Of a stretch of 64,000 nt of DNA, positions 7,329 to 27,350 are shown in pieces. The first letter of the stretch is position 1, and each line of letters starts with the position of its first letter. The DNA lies in NCBI RefSeq assembly GCF_016865255.1, contig NZ_CP033381.1:496001-560000 (forward strand), written 5' to 3'. Under the pieces are notes generated by a model that worked only from the letters and a program-made list of their open reading frames with translations, ran no database searches and was not told the DNA's origin. The DNA comes from Methylomonas sp. LW13 (GTDB lineage Bacteria > Pseudomonadota > Gammaproteobacteria > Methylococcales > Methylomonadaceae). Position numbers and translations under genes: made by a program.

Positions 7329-7482
7329 GATCGAGTAGGCGGCAGCTAACTGAATTGGAATCAATATCCGGAGTTTACGGCATTATCGGTTAAGCCGGTA
7401 TGACAGCCGTTGAATTAAACAATGCTTGCTTGTCCGGCGGCGCTTTACATAGAATGCGGTAGCCTTTATCTGGAGCCGCACT

Positions 7483-8004
7483 GTGAGCCAAGCCCGAGAG
7501 TTTATTCCGATTAATATCGCCGTATTGACTGTCTCCGATACTCGTACCGAATTAGACGACGTATCCGGGCAAACCTTGGTCACCGGTTTGACTGCGGCCG
7601 GGCATAACTTGATCGACAAAAAAATCGTTCCCGATGATATTTACCAAATCCGCGCCGCCGTCAGTCAATGGATCGCCGATCCGCAGGTCAATGCGGTTAT
7701 CACCACCGGCGGCACCGGCGTGACGGGGCGCGATGGTACCCCGGAAGCGATTCAACCGCTGTTGGATAAAGTATTGGATGGCTTTGGCGAAGTGTTTCGG
7801 ACGATTTCCTACCAGGACATCAAAAGCTCGACGATGCAATCGCGGGCTATCGCCGGCGTGGCCAACGCCACTTATATTTTCTGCGTGCCCGGTTCGTCCG
7901 GTGCTTGCCGGACTGCCTGGGATTCCTTAATCAAGGAACAATTGGATTACCGCACCCGGCCGTGTAATCTGGTGCAACTGATGCCGCGCCTGCTGGAGAA
8001 ATAA
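7483..8004 (+). CDS. moaB: Molybdenum cofactor biosynthesis protein MoaB
   Basis: 173 residues from a GTG with GGAG at 7471-7474. The MogA/MoaB fold is clear: INIAVLTVSDTRTELDDVSG at the N-terminus, then ITTGGTGVTGRDGTPEA, the molybdopterin adenylylation loop, and CVPGSSGACRTAW near the end. In E. coli, MoaB is structurally MogA-like but not essential; in other bacteria it adenylylates molybdopterin. No other moa gene is nearby. Its stop overlaps the DUF423 start by one base (TAATG). Confidence 0.92.
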   Translation: MSQAREFIPINIAVLTVSDTRTELDDVSGQTLVTGLTAAGHNLIDKKIVPDDIYQIRAAVSQWIADPQVNAVITTGGTGVTGRDGTPEAIQPLLDKVLDGFGEVFRTISYQDIKSSTMQSRAIAGVANATYIFCVPGSSGACRTAWDSLIKEQLDYRTRPCNLVQLMPRLLEK

Positions 8005-18318: not shown

Positions 18319-21030
18319 GTGACAGCATCGTATTTCCAATATTGGGGTAAAGCCAAGCCAGAATCCGATGACGGTCCGGCTTATCATTTATTGCCTTACC
18401 ATTGTTTGGATGTGGCGGCGGTAGGATCGCTCTGGCTTGCTCCGAATACAGCGGTTTGTAAGCAACTAGCAATGCGCCTGCAAGTCGAGCCGGAATGGCT
18501 GCAACGTTGGTTTACCTTTTGTCTTGTCCTGCACGATCTAGGCAAATTTGCTCGTGCGTTCCAAGGTTTGCGAACGGATTTGTCGGACGGTTTGGTCAAG
18601 CCGAATCCCAGAATGACTTATTCGGAACGTCACGATAGTCTGGGATTTGCGTTGTGGCGGGACGTGTTGCAAGAAAAATTGGCGCAGCACCTTCAGCCGG
18701 TTCAGGCTACTTGTATCAACAAAATCGATCCCTGGCTGGAAATCGTCACCGGCCACCACGGCATGCCGCCGAAATTGGATAGCTTTCGGCTTGGTAATTT
18801 CTTCGAGGCCGACGACGAGCAGGCAGCGTTCGTCTTCGTGCAGCATTTGCTGGATTGCTTTCTGGCTGATTTCGACTTTCAGCCCCTAGCGGACAAGAAC
18901 CTTTATAAACGCCTGAAGCCGTTGTCCTGGCAATTCGCCGGTATAGCCGTGTTGGCCGACTGGTTGGGTTCGAATCAGGAGCATTTCACTTATTGCGCCA
19001 AGCCGATGCCGCTTACCGAATATTGGCAAAACTTTGCGTTACCCAAGGCCAAACAAGCGCTTGCCGGTTTGCCTAAACCGCCTGTAGCCGGAAAATTCGA
19101 AGCCGTGCAAACCCTGTTTCCCTTTATCCAGCAGCCTACGCCGTTACAACGATACGCTGCCGAAGAGCCGTTGGCCGATCAACCGCAGTTCTTCATCCTC
19201 GAAGACGTCACCGGTGCCGGCAAAACCGAAGCTGCGTTGATTTTGACGCAACGCTTGATTGCAAAAGGTTTGGCTGACGGTCTGTACATCGGCTTGCCGA
19301 CCATGGCGACCGCCAACGCCATGTACCAGCGCTTGGGTAAGGTCTACCGCAGCTTTTATGAAGTCGGCGAACAGCCATCGTTGGTACTGGCGCATGGTGC
19401 TCGGGAATTGTCGCAAGCCTTTCGTGATTCGGTGCTACTGGCCGAGCAAGCAAATCTAGATACCGATTATCAGAACGGCCGACTCGAGGAAGATCAGGAA
19501 CTGAGCGCTACCGCTTACTGCAACGCCTGGCTGGCGGACAGTCGCAAAAAAGCCTTACTGGCGGATGTCGGCGTCGGCACGCTCGACCAAGCTTTATTGG
19601 CGGTGTTGCCGGCGCGGCATCAATCCTTGCGTTTACTGGGTTTGGGGCGCAAGGTGTTATTGGTGGACGAGGTCCACGCCTACGACAGCTATATGCGAGA
19701 ACTACTTTCGGCATTATTGGAAGCCCATGCCCGCCAGGGTGGCAGCGCGATTCTGTTGTCGGCCACCTTGCCGCAAACCATGCGCGAAACTCTAACCGCG
19801 GCTTTTCATCGCGGACTCGGATTGGAAGCGCCGAATTTGGCCTATCCGGCGGCTTACCCGTTGGCGACTCACACGCCGGCACAAAACCTGGAAAAGCCCA
19901 TCGATACCCGCGCCGAAGTCAAACGCACGGTTCACGTTCAACGCCTCGACAGCGAAGAACAAATCATTGCCAAAATTCGCCAAAGCGCCGAGCAAGGCCT
20001 CTGCGTTTGTTGGATACGCAATACCGTCAAATCGGCTCGGCAGGCTTATCAAACATTGCTCAGTCAAGGCGTTGCCGCCGAACGCTTGAGTTTGTTCCAT
20101 AGCCGTTTTGCGATGATAGACCGGCAAGTCATCGAAAACCGCACCTTGCAAACCTTCGGCGAACAATCAGGGCATGACCAGCGCAACGGCCAAATCCTGA
20201 TTGCCACCCAGGTAGTCGAACAATCCTTGGACTTGGATTTCGATGTACTGATCAGCGACTTGGCACCCATCGATTTACTGATTCAACGCGCCGGCCGTTT
20301 GTGCCGCCATGTCCGCGATGCGTTAGGCAACCGTTTGTGTGAACAAGGCGCGGAAGATCGCCGCGGCGCACCGGTGTTTTACCTGTATGCTCCGACGCCT
20401 TCGGACGATGCAAACGCCGCTTGGTTGAAGCCGGATCACGCCGGCACCCAGGCGGTTTACCCCCACGTTGGTCAGCTATGGCTGTCGGCTCGATTATTGG
20501 CAGATAAAGGTGGTTTCGCCATGCCGGACGATGCGCGGGAATTGATTGAAGGCGTGTATGCCGATGAAGCGCAGGCTCGCATACCGCTTGCATTGGAAGA
20601 AGCGTCGTTCGACGCGGAAGGTAAAACCATGGTGCAAAAAAGCATGGCAACGTTGAATGGGCTTGATCTGGGAAAGGGTTATACCCGGAAAAGCGGCGAT
20701 TGGGATGAGGAAACCCGAATTCCCACACGTCTCACCGAAGAGGAAAGTATTTCGGTGGCGTTGGCTGTGCTGGTTGACGGTCAGCTTAAGCCTTACGCCG
20801 ATGTCGAGCGTTACGCTTGGGCGTTGAGCACGATTAAGTTGCCGGAACGTGAATGGAAAAAAGTCAGTCTACAAATACCGGAAGATTTGAAACCGCAGAT
20901 TGAAGCTTTGAAAAATGAACAAAAGGCGTTGCGTTGGTTGGAGGTGTTGCCGTTAGTGGATGGGCAAAGCCTGTATTCGGCGACGGACGGATTTGTCGGG
21001 GAAGTCCCCGCGGGTGCGGGGAACGAATGA
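18319..21030 (+). CDS. cas3: CRISPR-associated helicase/nuclease Cas3 (type I-E)
   Basis: 903 residues from a GTG with AAGGA upstream. The HD nuclease comes first (H28 in YHCLD, LHDLGKFARAF near 71-81, TGHHG near 153). The SF2 helicase follows: DVTGAGKTEA near 296-305 (Walker A), VDEVHAYD near 450 (DEVH box), LSATLP, and the conserved QRAGRLCRH motif of the second lobe. A C-terminal domain closes it. Cas3 nicks and degrades DNA bound by Cascade. The last ten codons (GEVPAGAGNE) lie in a copy of the CRISPR repeat read from the other strand. It is separated from casA by 759 bp holding a guide-RNA-like element, a small ORF and hicBA. Confidence 0.96.
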   Translation: MTASYFQYWGKAKPESDDGPAYHLLPYHCLDVAAVGSLWLAPNTAVCKQLAMRLQVEPEWLQRWFTFCLVLHDLGKFARAFQGLRTDLSDGLVKPNPRMTYSERHDSLGFALWRDVLQEKLAQHLQPVQATCINKIDPWLEIVTGHHGMPPKLDSFRLGNFFEADDEQAAFVFVQHLLDCFLADFDFQPLADKNLYKRLKPLSWQFAGIAVLADWLGSNQEHFTYCAKPMPLTEYWQNFALPKAKQALAGLPKPPVAGKFEAVQTLFPFIQQPTPLQRYAAEEPLADQPQFFILEDVTGAGKTEAALILTQRLIAKGLADGLYIGLPTMATANAMYQRLGKVYRSFYEVGEQPSLVLAHGARELSQAFRDSVLLAEQANLDTDYQNGRLEEDQELSATAYCNAWLADSRKKALLADVGVGTLDQALLAVLPARHQSLRLLGLGRKVLLVDEVHAYDSYMRELLSALLEAHARQGGSAILLSATLPQTMRETLTAAFHRGLGLEAPNLAYPAAYPLATHTPAQNLEKPIDTRAEVKRTVHVQRLDSEEQIIAKIRQSAEQGLCVCWIRNTVKSARQAYQTLLSQGVAAERLSLFHSRFAMIDRQVIENRTLQTFGEQSGHDQRNGQILIATQVVEQSLDLDFDVLISDLAPIDLLIQRAGRLCRHVRDALGNRLCEQGAEDRRGAPVFYLYAPTPSDDANAAWLKPDHAGTQAVYPHVGQLWLSARLLADKGGFAMPDDARELIEGVYADEAQARIPLALEEASFDAEGKTMVQKSMATLNGLDLGKGYTRKSGDWDEETRIPTRLTEEESISVALAVLVDGQLKPYADVERYAWALSTIKLPEREWKKVSLQIPEDLKPQIEALKNEQKALRWLEVLPLVDGQSLYSATDGFVGEVPAGAGNE

Positions 21031-21087
21031 GTTGCTTCACATAATGTAGTCAGCGAAGCGGTTCATCCCTAATTGGCTTAAGGAACG
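20998..21087 (-). ncRNA. Mini-CRISPR guide RNA gene (CreA/CreR-like)
   Basis: On the minus strand this reads pseudo-repeat (21087-21059), 32-nt spacer (21058-21027), pseudo-repeat (21026-20998). The unit sizes 29/32/29 equal those of the main array. The first pseudo-repeat is identical to the array repeat over its last 11 bases (GGGATGAACCG), which contain the 8-nt crRNA handle. Its stem is rebuilt as CCTTAA-GCCAA-TTAGGG. The second matches over 20 contiguous bases covering the GC stem, but the handle is lost. Cas6e cleavage of both would release a crRNA-like RNA. The spacer partly matches the promoter region at 21131-21147 next to an AAG PAM. This organisation is that of CreA/CreR guides; expression is not shown. 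Confidence 0.82.
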
Positions 21088-21093
21088 AGTGAT

Positions 21094-21122
21094 AGTTTAA
21101 AGGTTGTGGATGTATATGTAAA
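21094..21122 (-). promoter_or_regulatory. Candidate promoter of the guide RNA
   Basis: On the minus strand, TTTACA (21122-21117), a 17-bp spacer and TAAACT (21099-21094) form a fair sigma70 promoter. A start seven bases beyond the -10 falls at about 21087, the first base of the first pseudo-repeat, so no separate leader would be needed. Confidence 0.55.
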
Positions 21123-21127
21123 ACTTT

Positions 21128-21162
21128 AAGCTTCGTTGACTTCATTAAAATTGACATTGTTC
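21128..21162 (+). promoter_or_regulatory. Cascade target site for the guide RNA (PAM plus partial protospacer)
   Basis: AAG at 21128-21130 is the standard type I-E PAM. The following 32 positions, compared with the mini-CRISPR spacer, match at 1-5, 7-11 and 13-17. Mismatches fall at 6 and 12, the positions flipped out of the duplex in Cascade. From 18 on the match is lost. Seed-only pairing of this sort is known to allow binding without Cas3 cleavage. The site covers the -35 box at 21151 and lies between two divergent promoters. Confidence 0.8.
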
Positions 21163-21180
21163 AATTGTATCGCCTATGAT
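21151..21180 (+). promoter_or_regulatory. Near-consensus sigma70 promoter before the 36-aa ORF and hicBA
   Basis: TTGACA at 21151-21156, an 18-bp spacer and TATGAT at 21175-21180 match the consensus at 11 of 12 positions. The predicted start is about 21187, 24 bases before the small ORF. It is the strongest promoter I can see in the cas locus and overlaps the guide RNA target. Confidence 0.8.
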
Positions 21181-21210: not shown

Positions 21211-21321
21211 ATGGGGCAGATCAAGGGTTTGATAGATGCGGTCAACGCTTTTGCGCCAAATCCGCTGGCGGTTATTTGTTTAGCTCTGGTACTTGCAATC
21301 ATCTTGGCGTTGAAGATGTGA
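21211..21321 (+). CDS. 36-residue hydrophobic peptide (candidate CreT-like toxin)
   Basis: The ATG at 21211 has GAGGG at good spacing upstream and lies 24 bases after the predicted start of a near-consensus promoter. The peptide has a short polar N-terminal helix (MGQIKGLIDAVNAFAPN) and one transmembrane helix (LAVICLALVLAIILAL), ending KM. The form is that of small membrane-acting toxins. It is the first gene behind the promoter that the guide RNA appears to target. No family is recognised, and it could also be a short leader ORF for hicBA. Confidence 0.6.
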   Translation: MGQIKGLIDAVNAFAPNPLAVICLALVLAIILALKM

Positions 21322-21357: not shown

Positions 21358-21561
21358 ATGAAATTAAAAGTCATCATTCACGAAGCCGAAGAAGGCGGTT
21401 ACTGGGCTGAAGTGCCGTCGATTCCGGGCTGTGTAACCCAAGGCGAAAGCTTTGACGAGTTGCTAAGCAATATTTATGAAGCAGTGGAAGGGTGTTTATC
21501 GGTGGATATAGACGAGGCCAGCGTTGGCAGTAACGACCGAATCATGGAGATTGCCGTGTGA
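21358..21561 (+). CDS. hicB: HicB-like antitoxin (short form)
   Basis: 67 residues from an ATG with GGAGAGA upstream. The fold is UPF0150/HicB: KLKVIIHEAEEGGYWAEVPSIPGC, then QGESFDELLSNIYEAVEG. This is only the HicA-binding half. The C-terminal ribbon-helix-helix or HTH domain by which long HicB proteins repress their own promoter is missing. It overlaps hicA by four bases (GTGA). The order antitoxin-toxin is common in this family. It sits inside the cas operon, between cas3 and casA. Confidence 0.88.
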   Translation: MKLKVIIHEAEEGGYWAEVPSIPGCVTQGESFDELLSNIYEAVEGCLSVDIDEASVGSNDRIMEIAV

Positions 21562-21764
21562 AGGCTATCAGCGGCAAGCGCATGTGCCGATTGCTGGAAA
21601 TGCGCGGTTGGGAGCTAAAACGAATCAACGGCAGCCATCATATTTACGCCAACGCCGTTAGCACAATGAGGATTTCCGTGCCGGTGCATGGCGATAGCGC
21701 GTTAAAGATCGGTTTGCAAAAGCAGATAATGAAAATGGCCGACATAGGCGAAGCTGAGTTGTAA
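21558..21764 (+). CDS. hicA: HicA-like mRNA interferase toxin
   Basis: 68 residues from a GTG, coupled to hicB. The dsRBD-like HicA fold is clear: SGKRMCRLLEMRGWELKRINGSHHIYAN contains the catalytic His after the NGSH turn, followed by VPVHGDSALKIGLQKQIMK. HicA cleaves mRNA and stops growth until HicB binds it. casA follows after 25 bases with its own AGGGAG site, so readthrough from the hicBA promoter would express Cascade. Confidence 0.9.
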   Translation: MKAISGKRMCRLLEMRGWELKRINGSHHIYANAVSTMRISVPVHGDSALKIGLQKQIMKMADIGEAEL

Positions 21765-21789: not shown

Positions 21790-23367
21790 ATGAATTTAAT
21801 AACGGATCGCTGGATACCGGTCATTCGCCAAAACGGCTTACACGATTTGATCGTGCCCTGGCAAATCGCCGAAACCGAAAACCCGGTGGTCGAAATCAAC
21901 GCGCCGAGGCCGGATTTTCAGGGTGCACTTTATCAATTCCTGATTGGTCTGCTGCAAACCGGATTCGCGCCGGAAGACGAAGAGCAATGGTTGGAGTATT
22001 GGGACGAGGCGCCGGATTCAAATGAATTGCAAGCCCGTTTTTCCCAATTGGCACCGGCGTTCGAATTGATCAGCGACGATGGCCCGGCATTTTTACAGGA
22101 TTTGGCACTGCCGGATGGCGAAGCCAAGCCTATCGCGGCGTTGCTGATCGAAGCGCCCGGCGGTAAAACCCTGAAAGACAATCTTGACCACTTCATCAAA
22201 CGCGGTTTGGCGAACCAACTATGCCCAAGTTGCGCGGCCAGCGCATTATTTACCTTGCAAACCAATGCACCATCCGGTGGCGTTGGGCATCGGGTCGGAT
22301 TACGCGGTGGTGGACCGTTGACGACCTTGGTGCTTCCCAAAGCCACCCAAACCGCGTTGTGGCAAAAGCTTTGGTTGAATGTGTTCAACCAGGAAGACCT
22401 GCAACCCTTAGATAACCTGGAAGCCGCCGTTATGCCCTGGTTGGGCAAAACCCGCACTTCCGAAAAAGGCCAGATCACCACGCCGGCAGATGTTCATCCG
22501 TTGCATGCTTATTGGGGAATGCCGCGCCGGATTCGCTTGAGCGAAACGCCCGAGCCGGGCGTTTGCGACTTATGCGGATGCCATGCCGAATCGTTGTTTC
22601 GCGAATACCGCACCAAAAACTATGGCACCAATTACGATGGCGCTTGGCAACATCCGTTAACGCCTTACCGCCACGATCCAAAAAAGGTCAATCCACCGCT
22701 GTCTTTGAAAGGCCAGCAAGGTGGCTTGGGTTATCGGCATTGGTTGGGATTGGCGTTACAGGACGATAGCAATGGCGACAAAGCCGCTCAGATTGTTCGG
22801 CACTACAACCAGGAGCGTGGACGGATGCTGGCCGACCGGGGCGGAGCGGCATTGTGGTGCTTCGGTTATGACATGGACAACATGAAGGCGCGTTGCTGGT
22901 ACGAAGCGAGGTTTCCGGTGTTTTATCTGTCCGTGCAACAGCAACACCAGCTTATCGGTTGGGCTGGCGAGTTGATCGATGCGGCACGGGAAACGGTGAA
23001 GATCCTGCGCAGCGAAGTCAAAATCGCCTGGTTCCGCCGTCCGGAAGATGCCAAAGGCGATATGAGCCAAATCGATACGCAATTTTGGCAAGCCAGCGAA
23101 GCCGAGTTTTTTCGTTTGTTGGATCGCTTGGCTACTTTGTCGGCCGGCGGTGGTATGGCACCGGCTGAAATTTACGCCGATTGGTTTGCAGTGTTGAAAT
23201 CGAAAATGACCGGGGTTTTTGAAGTCGCGACTTTAAGCTCCACGCCGGAAGATCTCGATTTAAAACGTATTATCAAAGCCCGTAAATCAATGCTGGATCG
23301 GTTTCGTAACAACAAAATTATCAAAGAACTAAAAGCTAAAGCCCAATCGGAGGAAGTAGCCAAATGA
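21790..23367 (+). CDS. casA: Cascade large subunit Cas8e (Cse1/CasA)
   Basis: 525 residues, normal for Cse1. It starts MNLITDRWIPVIRQNG, typical of the family, and has a zinc-type pair CPSC near residue 142 and CDLCGC near 260. In Cascade this subunit reads the PAM and recruits Cas3. AGGGAG lies before the ATG. It overlaps casB by four bases (ATGA). If the mini-CRISPR RNA guides Cascade, this protein must also accept its AAG PAM. Confidence 0.95.
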   Translation: MNLITDRWIPVIRQNGLHDLIVPWQIAETENPVVEINAPRPDFQGALYQFLIGLLQTGFAPEDEEQWLEYWDEAPDSNELQARFSQLAPAFELISDDGPAFLQDLALPDGEAKPIAALLIEAPGGKTLKDNLDHFIKRGLANQLCPSCAASALFTLQTNAPSGGVGHRVGLRGGGPLTTLVLPKATQTALWQKLWLNVFNQEDLQPLDNLEAAVMPWLGKTRTSEKGQITTPADVHPLHAYWGMPRRIRLSETPEPGVCDLCGCHAESLFREYRTKNYGTNYDGAWQHPLTPYRHDPKKVNPPLSLKGQQGGLGYRHWLGLALQDDSNGDKAAQIVRHYNQERGRMLADRGGAALWCFGYDMDNMKARCWYEARFPVFYLSVQQQHQLIGWAGELIDAARETVKILRSEVKIAWFRRPEDAKGDMSQIDTQFWQASEAEFFRLLDRLATLSAGGGMAPAEIYADWFAVLKSKMTGVFEVATLSSTPEDLDLKRIIKARKSMLDRFRNNKIIKELKAKAQSEEVAK

Positions 23368-23945
23368 GCGAATTCGAAACTATGGAAAAACGGTTACAAG
23401 CCTGGCACCGTTGGTTGGACGATAATCGTGGTGACCGCGCCCGGTTGCGCCGAGCCGAAAGCCCGGAGGACATTTTACTGACAGATGCATTTTTTCACTT
23501 TTTGGAATGGCTGAAACCTTTTCAAGAATGGTCGGAAAAGACGCCAATGTTGGCCAAGGCTTGCATTGCCGGAGCCCTGGCGCACGTCAAAATCGATAAA
23601 CAAATGCCAAGTCGCATTTACCACAGCAAAAGCAAAGACGATGTCCCCACCAAAATTGCCAGTTTTGCAGAGCAATTGGCTACGCCGCTAGAGGGTAAAA
23701 GTAAAGCGCCTATGAGCGAGCTGCGTTTTCAACAATTGCAAAAAAGCCCGACTGTTGACGATTTTTACCGCCGAATCATCCGCGCTATTCGATTGTTAGA
23801 TGGCAACGTCAATATTGTGTCGTTAGCTAAAGATATTGCACATTGGCATCGGGAATTCGAACAACCGTTAGGACGACACCCCGCCAAACGCCTAGCCGTG
23901 AGCTGGGCTACCGATTATTTCTCAGTGCCAACCCCAAAAAACTAA
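23364..23945 (+). CDS. casB: Cascade small subunit Cse2 (CasB)
   Basis: 193 residues, all-helical: WHRWLDDNRGDRARLRRAESPEDILL is the usual N-terminal signature. Two copies line the inner face of Cascade and stabilise the R-loop. It overlaps casA by four bases and is followed after 18 bases by casC, with AAGGAGAG before the casC start. Confidence 0.93.
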   Translation: MSEFETMEKRLQAWHRWLDDNRGDRARLRRAESPEDILLTDAFFHFLEWLKPFQEWSEKTPMLAKACIAGALAHVKIDKQMPSRIYHSKSKDDVPTKIASFAEQLATPLEGKSKAPMSELRFQQLQKSPTVDDFYRRIIRAIRLLDGNVNIVSLAKDIAHWHREFEQPLGRHPAKRLAVSWATDYFSVPTPKN

Positions 23946-23963
23946 CCTCAAGGAGAGACTTAA

Positions 23964-25031
23964 ATGAGCCGTTTCATTCAATTGCATTTGTTGACCGCTT
24001 ACCCGCCCGCCAACCTGAACCGCGACGATCAAGGTAGCCCCAAAACCGCGAAGATGGGCGGCTACGACCGCTTGCGGGTATCGTCGCAATGCCTGAAAAG
24101 AACCTGGAGAACTTCGGACTTGTTCCAGGCGGCGGTTGGCAGCCATTTGGGTACGCGCACCAAGTTGCTCGGCCTGGAGATATACAACAAATTGCTGGCA
24201 GGCGGCGTTAAAGAAAAAGACGCCAAGGAATGGACCAAGTCCATCGCCGGCGTATTCGGCGCCTTGAAAAAAGCCGACAAGAACGACCCTCTGGCCGAAA
24301 TGGAAATCGAGCAGTTGGTGCACGTTAGCCCCGCCGAGCGGGCAGCATTGGATGCGCTGGCCGCCAAACTGGTCGCCGAACAGCGAGCGCCGGAAAAAGA
24401 CGAATTGAATTTGCTGCGAGTCAAGGAACAGGCGGTGGACATTGCCTTGTTCGGCCGCATGCTGGCTTCCAGCCCGGCTTTTAACATCGAAGCCGCCTGC
24501 CAAGTAGCCCATGCCATCAGCGTGCATCCGGTGGTGATCGAAGACGATTATTTCACCGCTGTCGATGACCTCAATATCGGCGAGGATGACATGGGCGCCG
24601 CCCACATCGGCGAAACCCGCTTCGCCGCAGGTTTGTTTTACGCCTACATCTGCATCAACCGCGAGTTGCTGATTAAAAATCTGGACGGCAACGCCGAGCT
24701 TGCTAATAAAGCCATTCGCGCCTTGACCGAAGCCGCCGTCAAAGTCGCGCCGGAAGGCAAGCAAAACAGCTTCGCGTCCAGGGCTTATGCGTCGTTCGTG
24801 TTGGCGGAAAAGGGCGACCAGCAGCCGCGTTCGTTGTCGGTGGCTTATTTGAAACCCGTTGGCCGCGAAGCTGACGATTATGCTATTCAGGCCATTTCGG
24901 CGTTGAAAGCGCAGAACGAGAGCTTTGACGAAGTTTACGGCGCTTGCGCGGATAGCCGTTACGAACTGAATGCCTTACCGTCGCAACGCCAAGGTACTTT
25001 GGCCGGCTTGCTCGACTTCGTCGCTCAATAG
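23964..25031 (+). CDS. casC: Cascade backbone subunit Cas7e (Cse4/CasC)
   Basis: 355 residues. FIQLHLLTAYPPANLNRDDQGSPKTA at the N-terminus is the Cas7e signature, with SSQCLKRTWR close by. Six copies bind the crRNA and kink it every sixth base, which is why guide-target mismatches at positions 6 and 12 are tolerated. It lies 9 bases upstream of casD. Confidence 0.95.
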   Translation: MSRFIQLHLLTAYPPANLNRDDQGSPKTAKMGGYDRLRVSSQCLKRTWRTSDLFQAAVGSHLGTRTKLLGLEIYNKLLAGGVKEKDAKEWTKSIAGVFGALKKADKNDPLAEMEIEQLVHVSPAERAALDALAAKLVAEQRAPEKDELNLLRVKEQAVDIALFGRMLASSPAFNIEAACQVAHAISVHPVVIEDDYFTAVDDLNIGEDDMGAAHIGETRFAAGLFYAYICINRELLIKNLDGNAELANKAIRALTEAAVKVAPEGKQNSFASRAYASFVLAEKGDQQPRSLSVAYLKPVGREADDYAIQAISALKAQNESFDEVYGACADSRYELNALPSQRQGTLAGLLDFVAQ

Positions 25032-25040
25032 GAGCCGGTC

Positions 25041-25823
25041 ATGGACCTATTGTTATTCCGTTTATACGGGCCGATGGCGAGTTGGGGTGAAATCGCCGTT
25101 GGCGAAAGCCGGCATAGCGCCAATTATCCGAGCAAGTCGGCGATATTGGGATTGGTCGGCGCGGCGCTGGGTATAGAGCGAAGCGACGAAGCGCAACAAG
25201 CCAGTTTGCAGAATGGTTACCAAGTGGCCGTCGAAGTGTTCAGCACCGGCCAATTGCTGCGCGATTACCATACTGCGCAAGTGCCGGACTCGGCCGGCAA
25301 GTTTGTTTACCGTACCCGCCGCGACGAATTGGTGTTGGGCAAGGAGCGCTTGGGCACGATATTGTCCAGCCGCGAATACCGTAGCGATGCCCTGGCCGTC
25401 GTGGCTTTGCGCGCTTTACCGGATGCGCCGTTCAGTCTGATACAAATCGAGGAAAAACTGCGCAAGCCGGTGTTCCATTTGTATTTGGGGCGCAAATCTT
25501 GTCCGCTGGCCGCGCCGTTGCATCCGCAATTGCTGACCGAGCAAGCCGATCTGTTGTCGGCGTTCAAAGCCTATCTGCATAAACCGTTATTGCCGCACAA
25601 GGAGGCAGATGGCGCACTGGGCCAACCCGATAAGCAAGATGCTTATTGGCTGAATGCCGGTGGTGAGCGCCATTATTACTGGGAAGGCGAGCCTGATGAC
25701 TTTGCCAAAGACATCGATTTGCAGCTCCGGCAAACCCGCGTTCGCCACGATCAACCCTTATCGCGCAAACGGTGGCAATTCGCGCCGCGTCAGGAACATT
25801 ATTTTTATCAGGGAGGCGAGTGA
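25041..25823 (+). CDS. casD: Cascade subunit Cas5e (CasD)
   Basis: 260 residues. It starts MDLLLFRLYGPMASWGEIAVGE, the Cas5e form, followed by HSANYPSKSAILGLVGAALG, the Gly-rich RAMP loop. It caps the 5' handle of the crRNA. AGGAG precedes the ATG and the stop overlaps casE by one base. Confidence 0.95.
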   Translation: MDLLLFRLYGPMASWGEIAVGESRHSANYPSKSAILGLVGAALGIERSDEAQQASLQNGYQVAVEVFSTGQLLRDYHTAQVPDSAGKFVYRTRRDELVLGKERLGTILSSREYRSDALAVVALRALPDAPFSLIQIEEKLRKPVFHLYLGRKSCPLAAPLHPQLLTEQADLLSAFKAYLHKPLLPHKEADGALGQPDKQDAYWLNAGGERHYYWEGEPDDFAKDIDLQLRQTRVRHDQPLSRKRWQFAPRQEHYFYQGGE

Positions 25824-26701
25824 TGTATTTTTCCAGGGTCAGGATACGGCCGGATATTTACAAATCGTCGCAGTTGGCGAGGGTATTGGAAGGCAACGTT
25901 TACGGTTGTCATCAATTGTTATGGGATTTGTTCCCGGAACAGGACAAACGGACTTTTCTCTATCGCGAAGAAATTGCCCGCGAACAGATTGGTCCGTCGC
26001 CGGCGGTACGCGGCGAGCCCTTGTATTACGTCGTTTCGCAAAATAAGCCTATTGAGCTTGAAGGATCGTTGTTCAAGGTCGAGAGTAAAGAATACGACCC
26101 ACGATTGGCGAACGGCCTATGCCTGCAATTCGATTGCCGGGTCAACCCAGTGGTCAGTCGGCAAGGCAAAAAGCATGATGTGGCGATGGATGCGCAATTG
26201 CAGTTTTTGGCGTCGTTGATCAAATCGCATGGCCTGGATGTTTCTTTGCCCGCCAAAACCGATAAAGGTATTTACAAAAGGCTGTTACTGGAAAAGGGCG
26301 GGGCGGCGTTGGAGGCTGAATTATCCGAATTATTGGCTGGGGATCGTTACTACGCCGAGCGTTTGGGGCAAATTTCCGGCTTGGCTGATAAGTTGGAATG
26401 GGCGATCAAAGCCTGCGTCGATCAGGCACTGACTAGTTGGATGATCAAGCAAGGCGAGCGTTGCGGATTTACGTTACTGAGCGGCGATGACGGTTTACCC
26501 AAGTTGCAAAACAGCACTTACGCATGGCACGGCTTGCAGCAAAAGGCTGTCAAAAAAGGCGAAAAATCCGGCTTTAGCTCGGTCGATTTCACCGGCGAAC
26601 TGCAAATCACCGACGCCGAAAAATTTCGCCAAACCCTGTTCACCGGCCTGGGCCGGGCCAAGGCATTTGGTTGTGGTTTGCTGATGGTGCGGCGGTTATA
26701 A
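25823..26701 (+). CDS. casE: CRISPR RNA endonuclease Cas6e (CasE), enlarged
   Basis: 292 residues, against about 200-210 in the E. coli and Thermus proteins. The N-terminal RAMP fold with the putative catalytic His (GNVYGCHQLLWDLF, near residue 33) and the C-terminal half (SSVDFTGELQITD, then GLGRAKAFGCGLLMV) are standard. Between KHDVAMDA (~residue 120) and WMIKQGERCGFTL (~210) lies an extra ~85-residue, charged, helical segment. Cas6e cuts the repeat hairpin and stays bound to it. The ATG at 25823, after GGGAGG, is chosen over upstream in-frame starts. Confidence 0.92.
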   Translation: MYFSRVRIRPDIYKSSQLARVLEGNVYGCHQLLWDLFPEQDKRTFLYREEIAREQIGPSPAVRGEPLYYVVSQNKPIELEGSLFKVESKEYDPRLANGLCLQFDCRVNPVVSRQGKKHDVAMDAQLQFLASLIKSHGLDVSLPAKTDKGIYKRLLLEKGGAALEAELSELLAGDRYYAERLGQISGLADKLEWAIKACVDQALTSWMIKQGERCGFTLLSGDDGLPKLQNSTYAWHGLQQKAVKKGEKSGFSSVDFTGELQITDAEKFRQTLFTGLGRAKAFGCGLLMVRRL

Positions 26702-26748: not shown

Positions 26749-27024
26749 ATGAAACTATCCGAAAACATAAAACCCATCAGTTACTTAAAAGCCAACGCCG
26801 CTGAGGTGATCGAAAAATTAAAAACCGATCACCAGCCTATGGTCATCACCCAAAACGGCGAGGCGGCGATGGTGGTACAGTCGGTAGCCGATTACGAGCA
26901 AACTCAGGAAACCCTGGCCTTGCTGAAAATGTTGGCGCAAAGTCAGCAAGCGCTAGCGGAAGGCAAAACGGTGTCCAGCGCAGAGGCGTTTAGTCGTTTA
27001 CGCGAACGGCGCGGCTTGGCATGA
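26749..27024 (+). CDS. Phd/YefM family antitoxin
   Basis: 91 residues. The N-terminal DNA-binding part is NIKPISYLKANAAEVIEKLK followed by PMVITQNGEAAMVVQS, the Phd/YefM core. The C-terminal helix (KMLAQSQQALAEGKTVSSAEAFSRL) should wrap the toxin. It overlaps the toxin gene by four bases (ATGA). It is placed between casE and cas1, where most type I-E loci have nothing. Confidence 0.9.
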   Translation: MKLSENIKPISYLKANAAEVIEKLKTDHQPMVITQNGEAAMVVQSVADYEQTQETLALLKMLAQSQQALAEGKTVSSAEAFSRLRERRGLA

Positions 27025-27350
27025 GTGTCCCGGTACGACTGACCGAACCGGCCTTGGCCGATTTGCTGGCTATCAATGATTATTTCCTAGTGGAAGTCAG
27101 TGATAAGGTGGCAGCAAAAATCATCGATGCCCTCGAAACAGCCGTCAATAGCCTCGCGGATTTGAACGAGCGTGGAACCGTACCTAAAGAGTTACTGGGT
27201 TTGGGCATACGCCAATATCGACAAATCATCGTAAAACCCTATCGCATCATCTATCAACGCATGCCTGAACAAGTGGTCGTCCATGCCATTCTGGATGGGC
27301 GCCGCGATATGCAAACACTGTTAACCCAGCGATTGATAGGCGCTCTCTAG
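27021..27350 (+). CDS. RelE/ParE family toxin
   Basis: 109 residues. The fold is visible in VRLTEPALADLLAINDYF, then LGLGIRQYRQIIVKPYRIIYQRMPEQVVVHAILDGRRDM, the usual RelE/ParE C-terminal strand series with R-Y-R-I-I-Y. Whether it cuts mRNA (RelE) or poisons gyrase (ParE) cannot be decided from sequence. It is coupled to the antitoxin and lies 34 bases before cas1. Confidence 0.9.
   Translation: MSVPVRLTEPALADLLAINDYFLVEVSDKVAAKIIDALETAVNSLADLNERGTVPKELLGLGIRQYRQIIVKPYRIIYQRMPEQVVVHAILDGRRDMQTLLTQRLIGAL

Follow-up and report, generated by a model that had tools for sequence, protein, structure and literature searches.

A candidate CreTA-like module with a conserved membrane peptide in the type I-E cas locus of Methylomonas sp. 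LW13

The cas locus, the guide unit and its target

The DNA considered here is a stretch of 64,000 nucleotides (nt) from Methylomonas sp. LW13 (contig NZ_CP033381.1, positions 496,001 to 560,000; hereafter the window), whose source replicon is a 5.23-Mb single-contig genome. On its plus strand, NCBIfam and Pfam profiles recover a complete type I-E set of CRISPR (clustered regularly interspaced short palindromic repeats) genes, cas3, cas8e, cas11, cas7, cas5, cas6e, cas1e and cas2e, followed 3′ of cas2 by a long array with the repeat GTGTTCCCCGCACCCGCGGGGATGAACCG. The interval between cas3 (18319..21030; Cas3_HD, 1.9e-45; TIGR01587, 9.9e-68) and cas8e, also called casA or cse1 (21790..23367; TIGR02547, 2.9e-118), holds a guide unit in the form of a minus-strand mini-CRISPR, together with four plus-strand features, namely a promoter predicted to be strong, an open reading frame (ORF) for a 36-residue peptide, hicB and hicA. 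Cas8e is the first Cascade gene 3′ of the promoter that the guide putatively controls, and together with cas11 (cse2), cas7, cas5 and cas6e (23364..26701; TIGR02548, TIGR01869, TIGR01868, TIGR01907) it makes up the full Cascade gene set. A position inside a type I cas locus with Cascade genes is one of the features by which CRISPR-regulated toxin-antitoxin (CreTA) modules are recognised, and it is the position found here.

Read on the minus strand, the guide unit opens with a degenerate repeat, psiR1 (21059..21087), which shares 14/29 ungapped identities with the array repeat and whose last 11 nt are identical to it; the final 8 nt form the 5′ handle ATGAACCG (21066-21059). A 32-nt spacer, psiS (21027..21058), follows, and then a second degenerate repeat, psiR2 (20998..21026), which matches the array repeat at 22/29 positions and contains a predicted 7-bp stem. 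An earlier interpretation made from the letters alone (the sequence-only reading) had described an exact 29/32/29-bp repeat-spacer-repeat unit where cas3 ends, written on the minus strand, and the coordinates agree. The window contains, in other words, a gene for a CRISPR RNA (crRNA)-like guide outside the array, with two degenerate repeats and an 8-nt handle, as is characteristic of CreTA, and both psiR1 and psiR2 are present in 10/10 of the closest guide-bearing loci. A guide promoter is predicted on the same strand at 21094..21122 (TTTACA-17-TAAACT, 9/12, a consensus match only), and the guide RNA would be ~61 nt long, starting with AUGAACCG at 21066 and running leftward. PsiR2 overlaps the 3′ end of cas3 and writes its final codons (20998-21030, the gene ending at 21030); at five of the closest loci that have neither the module nor hicBA (L034, L035, L040, L043 and L045), cas3 ends at most ~62 bp from cas8e or overlaps it.

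The spacer finds its partner ~40 bp away. Its first 17 positions match the plus strand at 21131-21147 in 15/17, with mismatches at positions 6 and 12 only and with an AAG protospacer-adjacent motif (PAM; 21128..21130) directly in front, just as the sequence-only reading had it. The whole putative Cascade target, or protospacer, spans 21131..21162 and runs into the predicted promoter of the peptide (21151..21180; TTGACA-18-TATGAT), which is indeed near-consensus as proposed (11/12, with an 18-nt spacer), by consensus match only. The further claim that the site overlaps the -35 element (21151-21156) holds for the 32-nt protospacer footprint, which extends to 21162, but not for the 17 paired nucleotides, which end 3 nt short of it. 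Promoter-grade consensus matches in the region number three, against a shuffle mean of 1.4. PAM-flanked seed pairing at the promoter of the controlled gene, with positions 6 and 12 free, is likewise a CreTA feature, and this is the arrangement seen here with a predicted promoter.

Chance controls and guide-target covariation

A search of the whole 5.23-Mb genome for AAG plus the pairing pattern, allowing up to three mismatches, returned the window site as the sole mismatch-free place; the guide itself has two mismatches (and no PAM), and four other places have three. When the neighbourhood of each of the 10 closest guide-bearing loci was put through 300 dinucleotide shuffles, the full score of 13/13 was never reached, best-match scores having means of 8.5-9.1 of 13 and a maximum of 12. 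A strict screen, with a threshold of a handle of at least 7/8 and a PAM-flanked match scoring at least 13, was applied to 53 stretches upstream of cas8e in the family (18 + 8 + 27), which represent most of the family's Cas8e places (59/237 genomes) plus one extra. It found pairs in 10, 1 and 5 of the three groups, or 16/53, against 0/1,060 shuffles; L054, L056-L058 and some weak or split matches lie outside the screened set, and L041 has little upstream sequence. Pairs slightly below the threshold, or lacking one of the four PAMs, occur at L050, L140, L133 and L052. Among loci from a class-wide sample, 5/29 pass the strict threshold against 1/580 shuffles, one of the 29 being the family's G015.

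Related loci provide evidence of another kind. Guide and target are present in 18/20 loci that encode the peptide, the window included. The guide search required a handle of at least 7/8 (14/18 have 8/8), and the best match was chosen on positions 1-15 minus 6 and 12, the PAM being disregarded in the choice. AAG precedes the best match in 18/18 loci. Positions 1-5, 8, 10, 13, 14 and 15 match in all 18, positions 9 and 11 in 17 and position 7 in 16; position 6 matches in 4 and position 12 in 6, positions 16 and 17 in 13 and 11, respectively, and beyond 17 matching is near background. Picking the best match accounts for part of the high rates at the scored positions, hence the importance of the neighbourhood shuffles; no such selection acted on the AAG or on the low rates at positions 6 and 12. 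In the first ten pairs, obtained from Cas8e relatives in the family, positions 1-15 minus 6 and 12 match in 130/130 cases, and the guides and targets differ among the loci, three being nearly alike. Reduced to one representative per near-identical group (13 loci), guides fit their own targets at 166/169 positions, a value reached in 0/200,000 permutations of guides against targets (maximum 134/169). A drifting apart of spacer and target in relatives had been named as an outcome that would undo the sequence-only reading; the opposite was found, with guide and target fitting in 18/18 loci even though both vary from locus to locus. The position pattern is the one expected if Cascade reads the guide-target pair, and in the mutagenesis of a haloarchaeal CreA, in the portion of the report available to us, ten of the first 12 nt were required and only nt 6 and 12 could be dispensed with (PMC8501985).

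The target lies on the plus strand in the window and two close relatives and on the minus strand in the other 15 of 18 loci. In the three plus-strand loci its PAM-distal part covers the -35 of the predicted peptide promoter, and in 9/10 loci of the window's peptide subfamily there is overlap between the target with its PAM and the predicted peptide promoter, often by 1-2 nt only. The predicted guide promoter is overlapped by the target in the subfamily's seven minus-strand loci and in none of its three plus-strand loci, so that in the minus-strand loci the guide may limit its own expression. All promoters in this comparison are consensus predictions; a scan of eight loci from the other two peptide subfamilies (see below) gave inconsistent promoters and was left out of the counts. 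In a Cas8e tree (14 rows of 24 loci; one fork at 87/87, one at 85/85), L031 and L032, with a minus-strand target and no hicBA, nest among L029, L030 and L033, with a plus-strand target and hicBA, hinting that the cas3-cas8e cassette has been swapped between strains.

The membrane peptide

Behind the predicted promoter lies an ORF (21211..21321, plus strand) for a 36-residue single-span membrane peptide. The comparison of loci points to this conserved peptide, which the sequence-only reading had left unnamed, as the product of the guide-linked gene and the putative toxin (CreT). A profile search of 237 family genomes located 20 peptide places in 19 genomes, all of them upstream of cas8e and within ~525 bp of it. 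Eighteen of the 20 were already known from cas8e flanks, 12 being the sources of the profile's own rows, and the cas8e start of G152 was read separately from those of the other loci; what the scan adds is two more copies at cas8e and the result that no copy occurs elsewhere at E <= 0.001.

Eight of the nine aligned members (the altered G024 left out) are 36 residues long and one is 40. All nine share K5, F14, P16 and P18 and a large part of the membrane segment, the invariance of M1 being conventional only as some starts are GTG or TTG, and the 19-residue hydropathy lies at 2.58-3.28. The proportion of synonymous differences (pS) exceeds that of non-synonymous differences (pN) in 36/36 pairs, and the ratio of non-synonymous to synonymous substitution rates (dN/dS) is 0.02-0.23 in the 18/36 pairs with computable dS, which argues that the peptide is kept as a protein; synonymous sites are near saturation in most pairs. 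The gap between peptide and cas8e shrinks to 19-28 bp in G220, G117, G189 and G116, and genes this close together should share a transcript, so that in several relatives the Cascade genes should be transcribed with the peptide.

Named relatives of the peptide come from Methylomonas species and from metagenome-assembled genomes (MAGs) of methanotrophs, one MAG being labelled 'uncultured proteobacterium'. Two further subfamilies, mostly single-span peptides of 35-36 residues (58 in G209), occupy the corresponding place at cas8e genes of greater divergence and have guides of their own; that all three subfamilies are homologous is no more than suggested (hhalign E 1.2e-4 and 1.4e-4, probability 52-55 %). 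In 369 genomes of the class, the peptide profile gave nothing convincing beyond the window's own copy, its four weak matches (0.002-0.009) falling in frames of 87-318 residues, and a scan of genome contigs reduced 237 pattern matches to 8 loci that, by peptide and guide, are apparently already in the set. Viral contigs yielded 115 pattern matches and no relative of the peptide, and plasmids no match to the window peptide; a mobile origin was rejected on these two results. In G229, which is conspecific with the window genome, neither cas8e nor the peptide was found, system and module being missing together.

A proposed Cascade-guided switch and its alternatives

These observations make it likely, in our judgement, that the interval contains a type I-E CreTA-like module whose toxin is the translated membrane peptide. 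The mini-CRISPR would be transcribed divergently from the minus strand and cut by Cas6e at both degenerate repeats, and the resulting crRNA-like guide would load Cascade and take it to the AAG-flanked site. Cascade would bind there without licensing Cas3, because only ~15-17 PAM-proximal positions pair, and would block the promoter at 21151-21180. That promoter would drive the 36-residue peptide, most likely a growth-arresting toxin, and the transcript probably continues across hicBA to take in cas8e and the rest of the Cascade set. As long as Cascade is intact the peptide would stay off; upon loss or inhibition of Cascade the peptide would be made, and Cascade with it from the same transcript, such that addiction (CreTA) and feedback on cas expression (CreR) would be one switch. 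The guide anatomy, target, PAM, covariation, conservation of the peptide as a protein and its position in the cas8e flank come directly from the sequence, and from these we infer transcription, processing, repression, toxicity and co-transcription.

The sequence-only reading had offered CreTA or CreR as a choice. A guide-controlled promoter is supported by the covariation, and the two roles, which are not mutually exclusive, probably both apply, cas8e lying downstream of the predicted promoter on the same strand. A wider proposal is more tentative and falls just short of an even call, namely that a membrane-peptide toxin and Cascade are both expressed from a single promoter under Cascade repression, so that a fall in active Cascade would poison the cell and rebuild Cascade at once, as a timed kill switch merging CreTA and CreR, and that the three type I-E peptide subfamilies would form a new translated class of Cascade-repressed toxins.

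A number of observations weigh against this interpretation. At four of the 18 loci there is a single mismatch at a position other than 6 and 12. In the window, 468 bp separate cas8e from the peptide, with hicBA between them, and co-transcription is here only inferred. The window peptide has no Pfam match above cut-off (the best is OppC_N at 0.0031), no match in NCBIfam and nothing convincing in PHROGs (best 0.057). G024 retains the guide and has a peptide with an altered C-terminal part; in G152 (L158) the peptide gene is broken close to its start, and so little of the contig precedes it that the guide is out of view, leaving only one informative guide-less locus. The other two subfamilies were noticed in guide-bearing loci in the first place, and the co-occurrence of peptide and guide is to that extent a matter of ascertainment. 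Finally, guides precede cas8e without a recognised membrane peptide at L052, L073, L074, L081 and L090, and thus a guide need not imply a toxin.

This last point touches on an alternative that we hold to be unlikely: the guide could be a feedback regulator of Cascade and nothing else (CreR), and the peptide, instead of being toxic, could be an innocuous leader or an accessory membrane protein belonging to the cas operon. Loci such as L052, L081 and L090, where a guide unit of this layout precedes cas8e and no membrane peptide is recognised in between, would be expected on these terms, as would the 19-28 bp between the end of the peptide and cas8e in the four relatives named above. However, a harmless leader sits poorly with a peptide held at dN/dS 0.02-0.23 and co-occurring with the guide. 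At the single locus where the guide is visibly absent (L163/L047 in G015), psiR1 and guide being unrecognisable, the peptide is frameshifted, and a translated toxin is reported from the same place in Citrobacter rodentium (PMC12055562, in the part accessible). None of these points proves toxicity.

The C. rodentium type I-E CreTA is the closest described case. According to the accessible part of that report (PMC12055562), it lies at the cas3/casA site, its short ORF arrests growth only if translated, and the phenotype of casD loss is rescued by deletion of the region. It shares with the window the type I-E system, the cas3/casA intergenic position, a short ORF preceded by a guide on the other strand and a partial target with a type I-E PAM at the promoter. 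Its ORF is 96 bp long, its PAM is ATG and its target covers an UP element, whereas here a 36-codon ORF, AAG and a footprint over a predicted -35 are found; its authors report no BLAST homologue, whereas here there is a conserved peptide family, the two peptides being compared by description only.

In CreR (Liu et al. 2023, as outlined in the available text of PMC12737573), a crRNA-like guide has Cascade repress a promoter that lies ahead of cas genes, a layout similar to the present one; it is described there as generally uncoupled from a toxin gene, whereas in the window the first ORF is that of the conserved peptide. CrePA (Shu et al. 2025, outlined in the same text) has a guide-repressed protein toxin to which the putative peptide toxin may be likened, but CreP is typically a KilA-N protein acting on FtsZ (PMC12737573), whereas here the product is a 36-residue membrane peptide with no Pfam family above cut-off. 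CreTA, CreR, CrePA and a type I-E CreTA with a translated toxin are already described, as far as the available portions of these sources go (PMC12737573; PMC12055562). Among the literature matches listed, no title or abstract opening is on this peptide family or on a methanotroph CreTA. Regulatory RNAs derived from CRISPR were reportedly surveyed by Shmakov et al. (2023), and these loci may be among those listed.

A toxic RNA is a very improbable explanation. The short ORF would sequester a rare tRNA and the peptide itself would be inert, and characterised archaeal CreT do hold mini-ORFs yet act as RNA (PMC8501985 and PMC10097628, in the passages available). In the family studied here, however, residues are retained where synonymous sites are near-saturated in most pairs, and the window ORF has one ATA codon and no Arg codon. 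The original haloarchaeal definition of CreTA is that of a type VIII toxin-antitoxin with an RNA toxin; selection on the window family at the protein level argues against an RNA toxin. H. hubeiense CreTA pairs at positions 1-5 and 7-11 with 6 and 12 free, like the window guide (PMC8501985, available portion). More generally, the modules of Haloarcula hispanica and H. hubeiense (type I-B) and of Acinetobacter (type I-F) resemble the present one in having a crRNA-like guide with one or more degenerate repeats, and theirs represses the toxin promoter in a Cascade-dependent manner; their CreT act as RNA, by tRNA sequestration or as a bactericidal small RNA, whereas the window peptide is under protein-level selection. 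Short single-span hydrophobic peptides under RNA control are also found among the type I toxins, such as TisB, Fst and Ldr, whose antitoxin RNAs act on mRNA, unlike the guide RNA proposed here, which would steer Cascade to DNA; the NCBIfam, Pfam and PHROGs scans gave no family match of the window peptide to toxins of this type.

More improbable still is that the guide mainly controls the HicBA pair behind the peptide, encoded on the plus strand by hicB for the antitoxin (21358..21561; Pfam HicB_lk_antitox, 2.7e-07) and hicA for the toxin (21558..21764; Pfam HicA_toxin, 6.8e-15). In the window the pair sits downstream of the putatively controlled promoter and may share the peptide's transcript, but HicB is already an antitoxin, and in the set of the 18 closest loci hicBA is missing from five that carry both guide and peptide (L031, L032, L038, L042 and L046), and is present in two that carry neither (L036 and L037). 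Because hicBA and the guide occur independently in this set, HicBA is rejected as the partner of the guide, and by this comparison hicBA is a passenger here, with neither gene guide-linked. A chance resemblance in a decayed CRISPR remnant, for which the strong degeneracy of psiR1 (14/29) might be cited, is refuted, in line with the sequence-only reading's view that such a match is hard to explain by chance, by covariation in 18/18 loci, 0/300 shuffles in each of 10 loci, 0/1,060 shuffles against 16/53 family loci and a mismatch-free site unique in its genome.

Should the CreTA-like interpretation hold, the module would add to the type I-E cases in which a toxin repressed by Cascade is translated, here in a family rich in natural variants, and would connect such toxins with membrane peptides. 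The 18 natural guide-target pairs record the apparent needs of Cascade for silencing, that is, a PAM and positions 1-5, 7-11 and 13-15, but neither 6 nor 12. Addiction to CRISPR-Cas and its autoregulation would be one circuit if a common promoter serves toxin and Cascade, and cultured methanotrophs make such a circuit accessible to experiment.

The cas locus carries an additional pair, a Phd/YefM antitoxin with a ParE toxin, at 26749-27350 between cas6e and cas1; together with hicBA and the peptide-guide unit this amounts to three toxin-antitoxin-like modules. Seven loci, L052 from the family and L073, L074, L079, L081, L085 and L090 from the class sample, have a guide-target pair ahead of cas8e, in most cases with no membrane peptide recognised, and are candidate CreR; L073 has a handle of only 6/8, L052 has an AAA PAM, and L085 has an ORF of 71-81 residues without a Pfam family in the place of the peptide. 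A weaker pair in G061 (L133; score 12, AAG) has its guide near 1018, before a gene for a ParE-family toxin (ORF 1194-1478; Pfam 6e-12) that replaces the peptide, and is possibly a guide-controlled ParE-type toxin. A similar guide candidate is present in the cas3-casA intergenic region of Escherichia coli K-12 (L097), where a minus-strand repeat piece has the handle ATAAACCG (handle and spacer at 7503-7542, target at 7357-7372); its spacer has an AAG-flanked 16-nt match except at positions 6 and 9, with a score of 11.5 that lies under the strict threshold and has no shuffle control. The region is matched in 1126/5426 E. coli genomes, in 1104 of them over at least 80% of its length.

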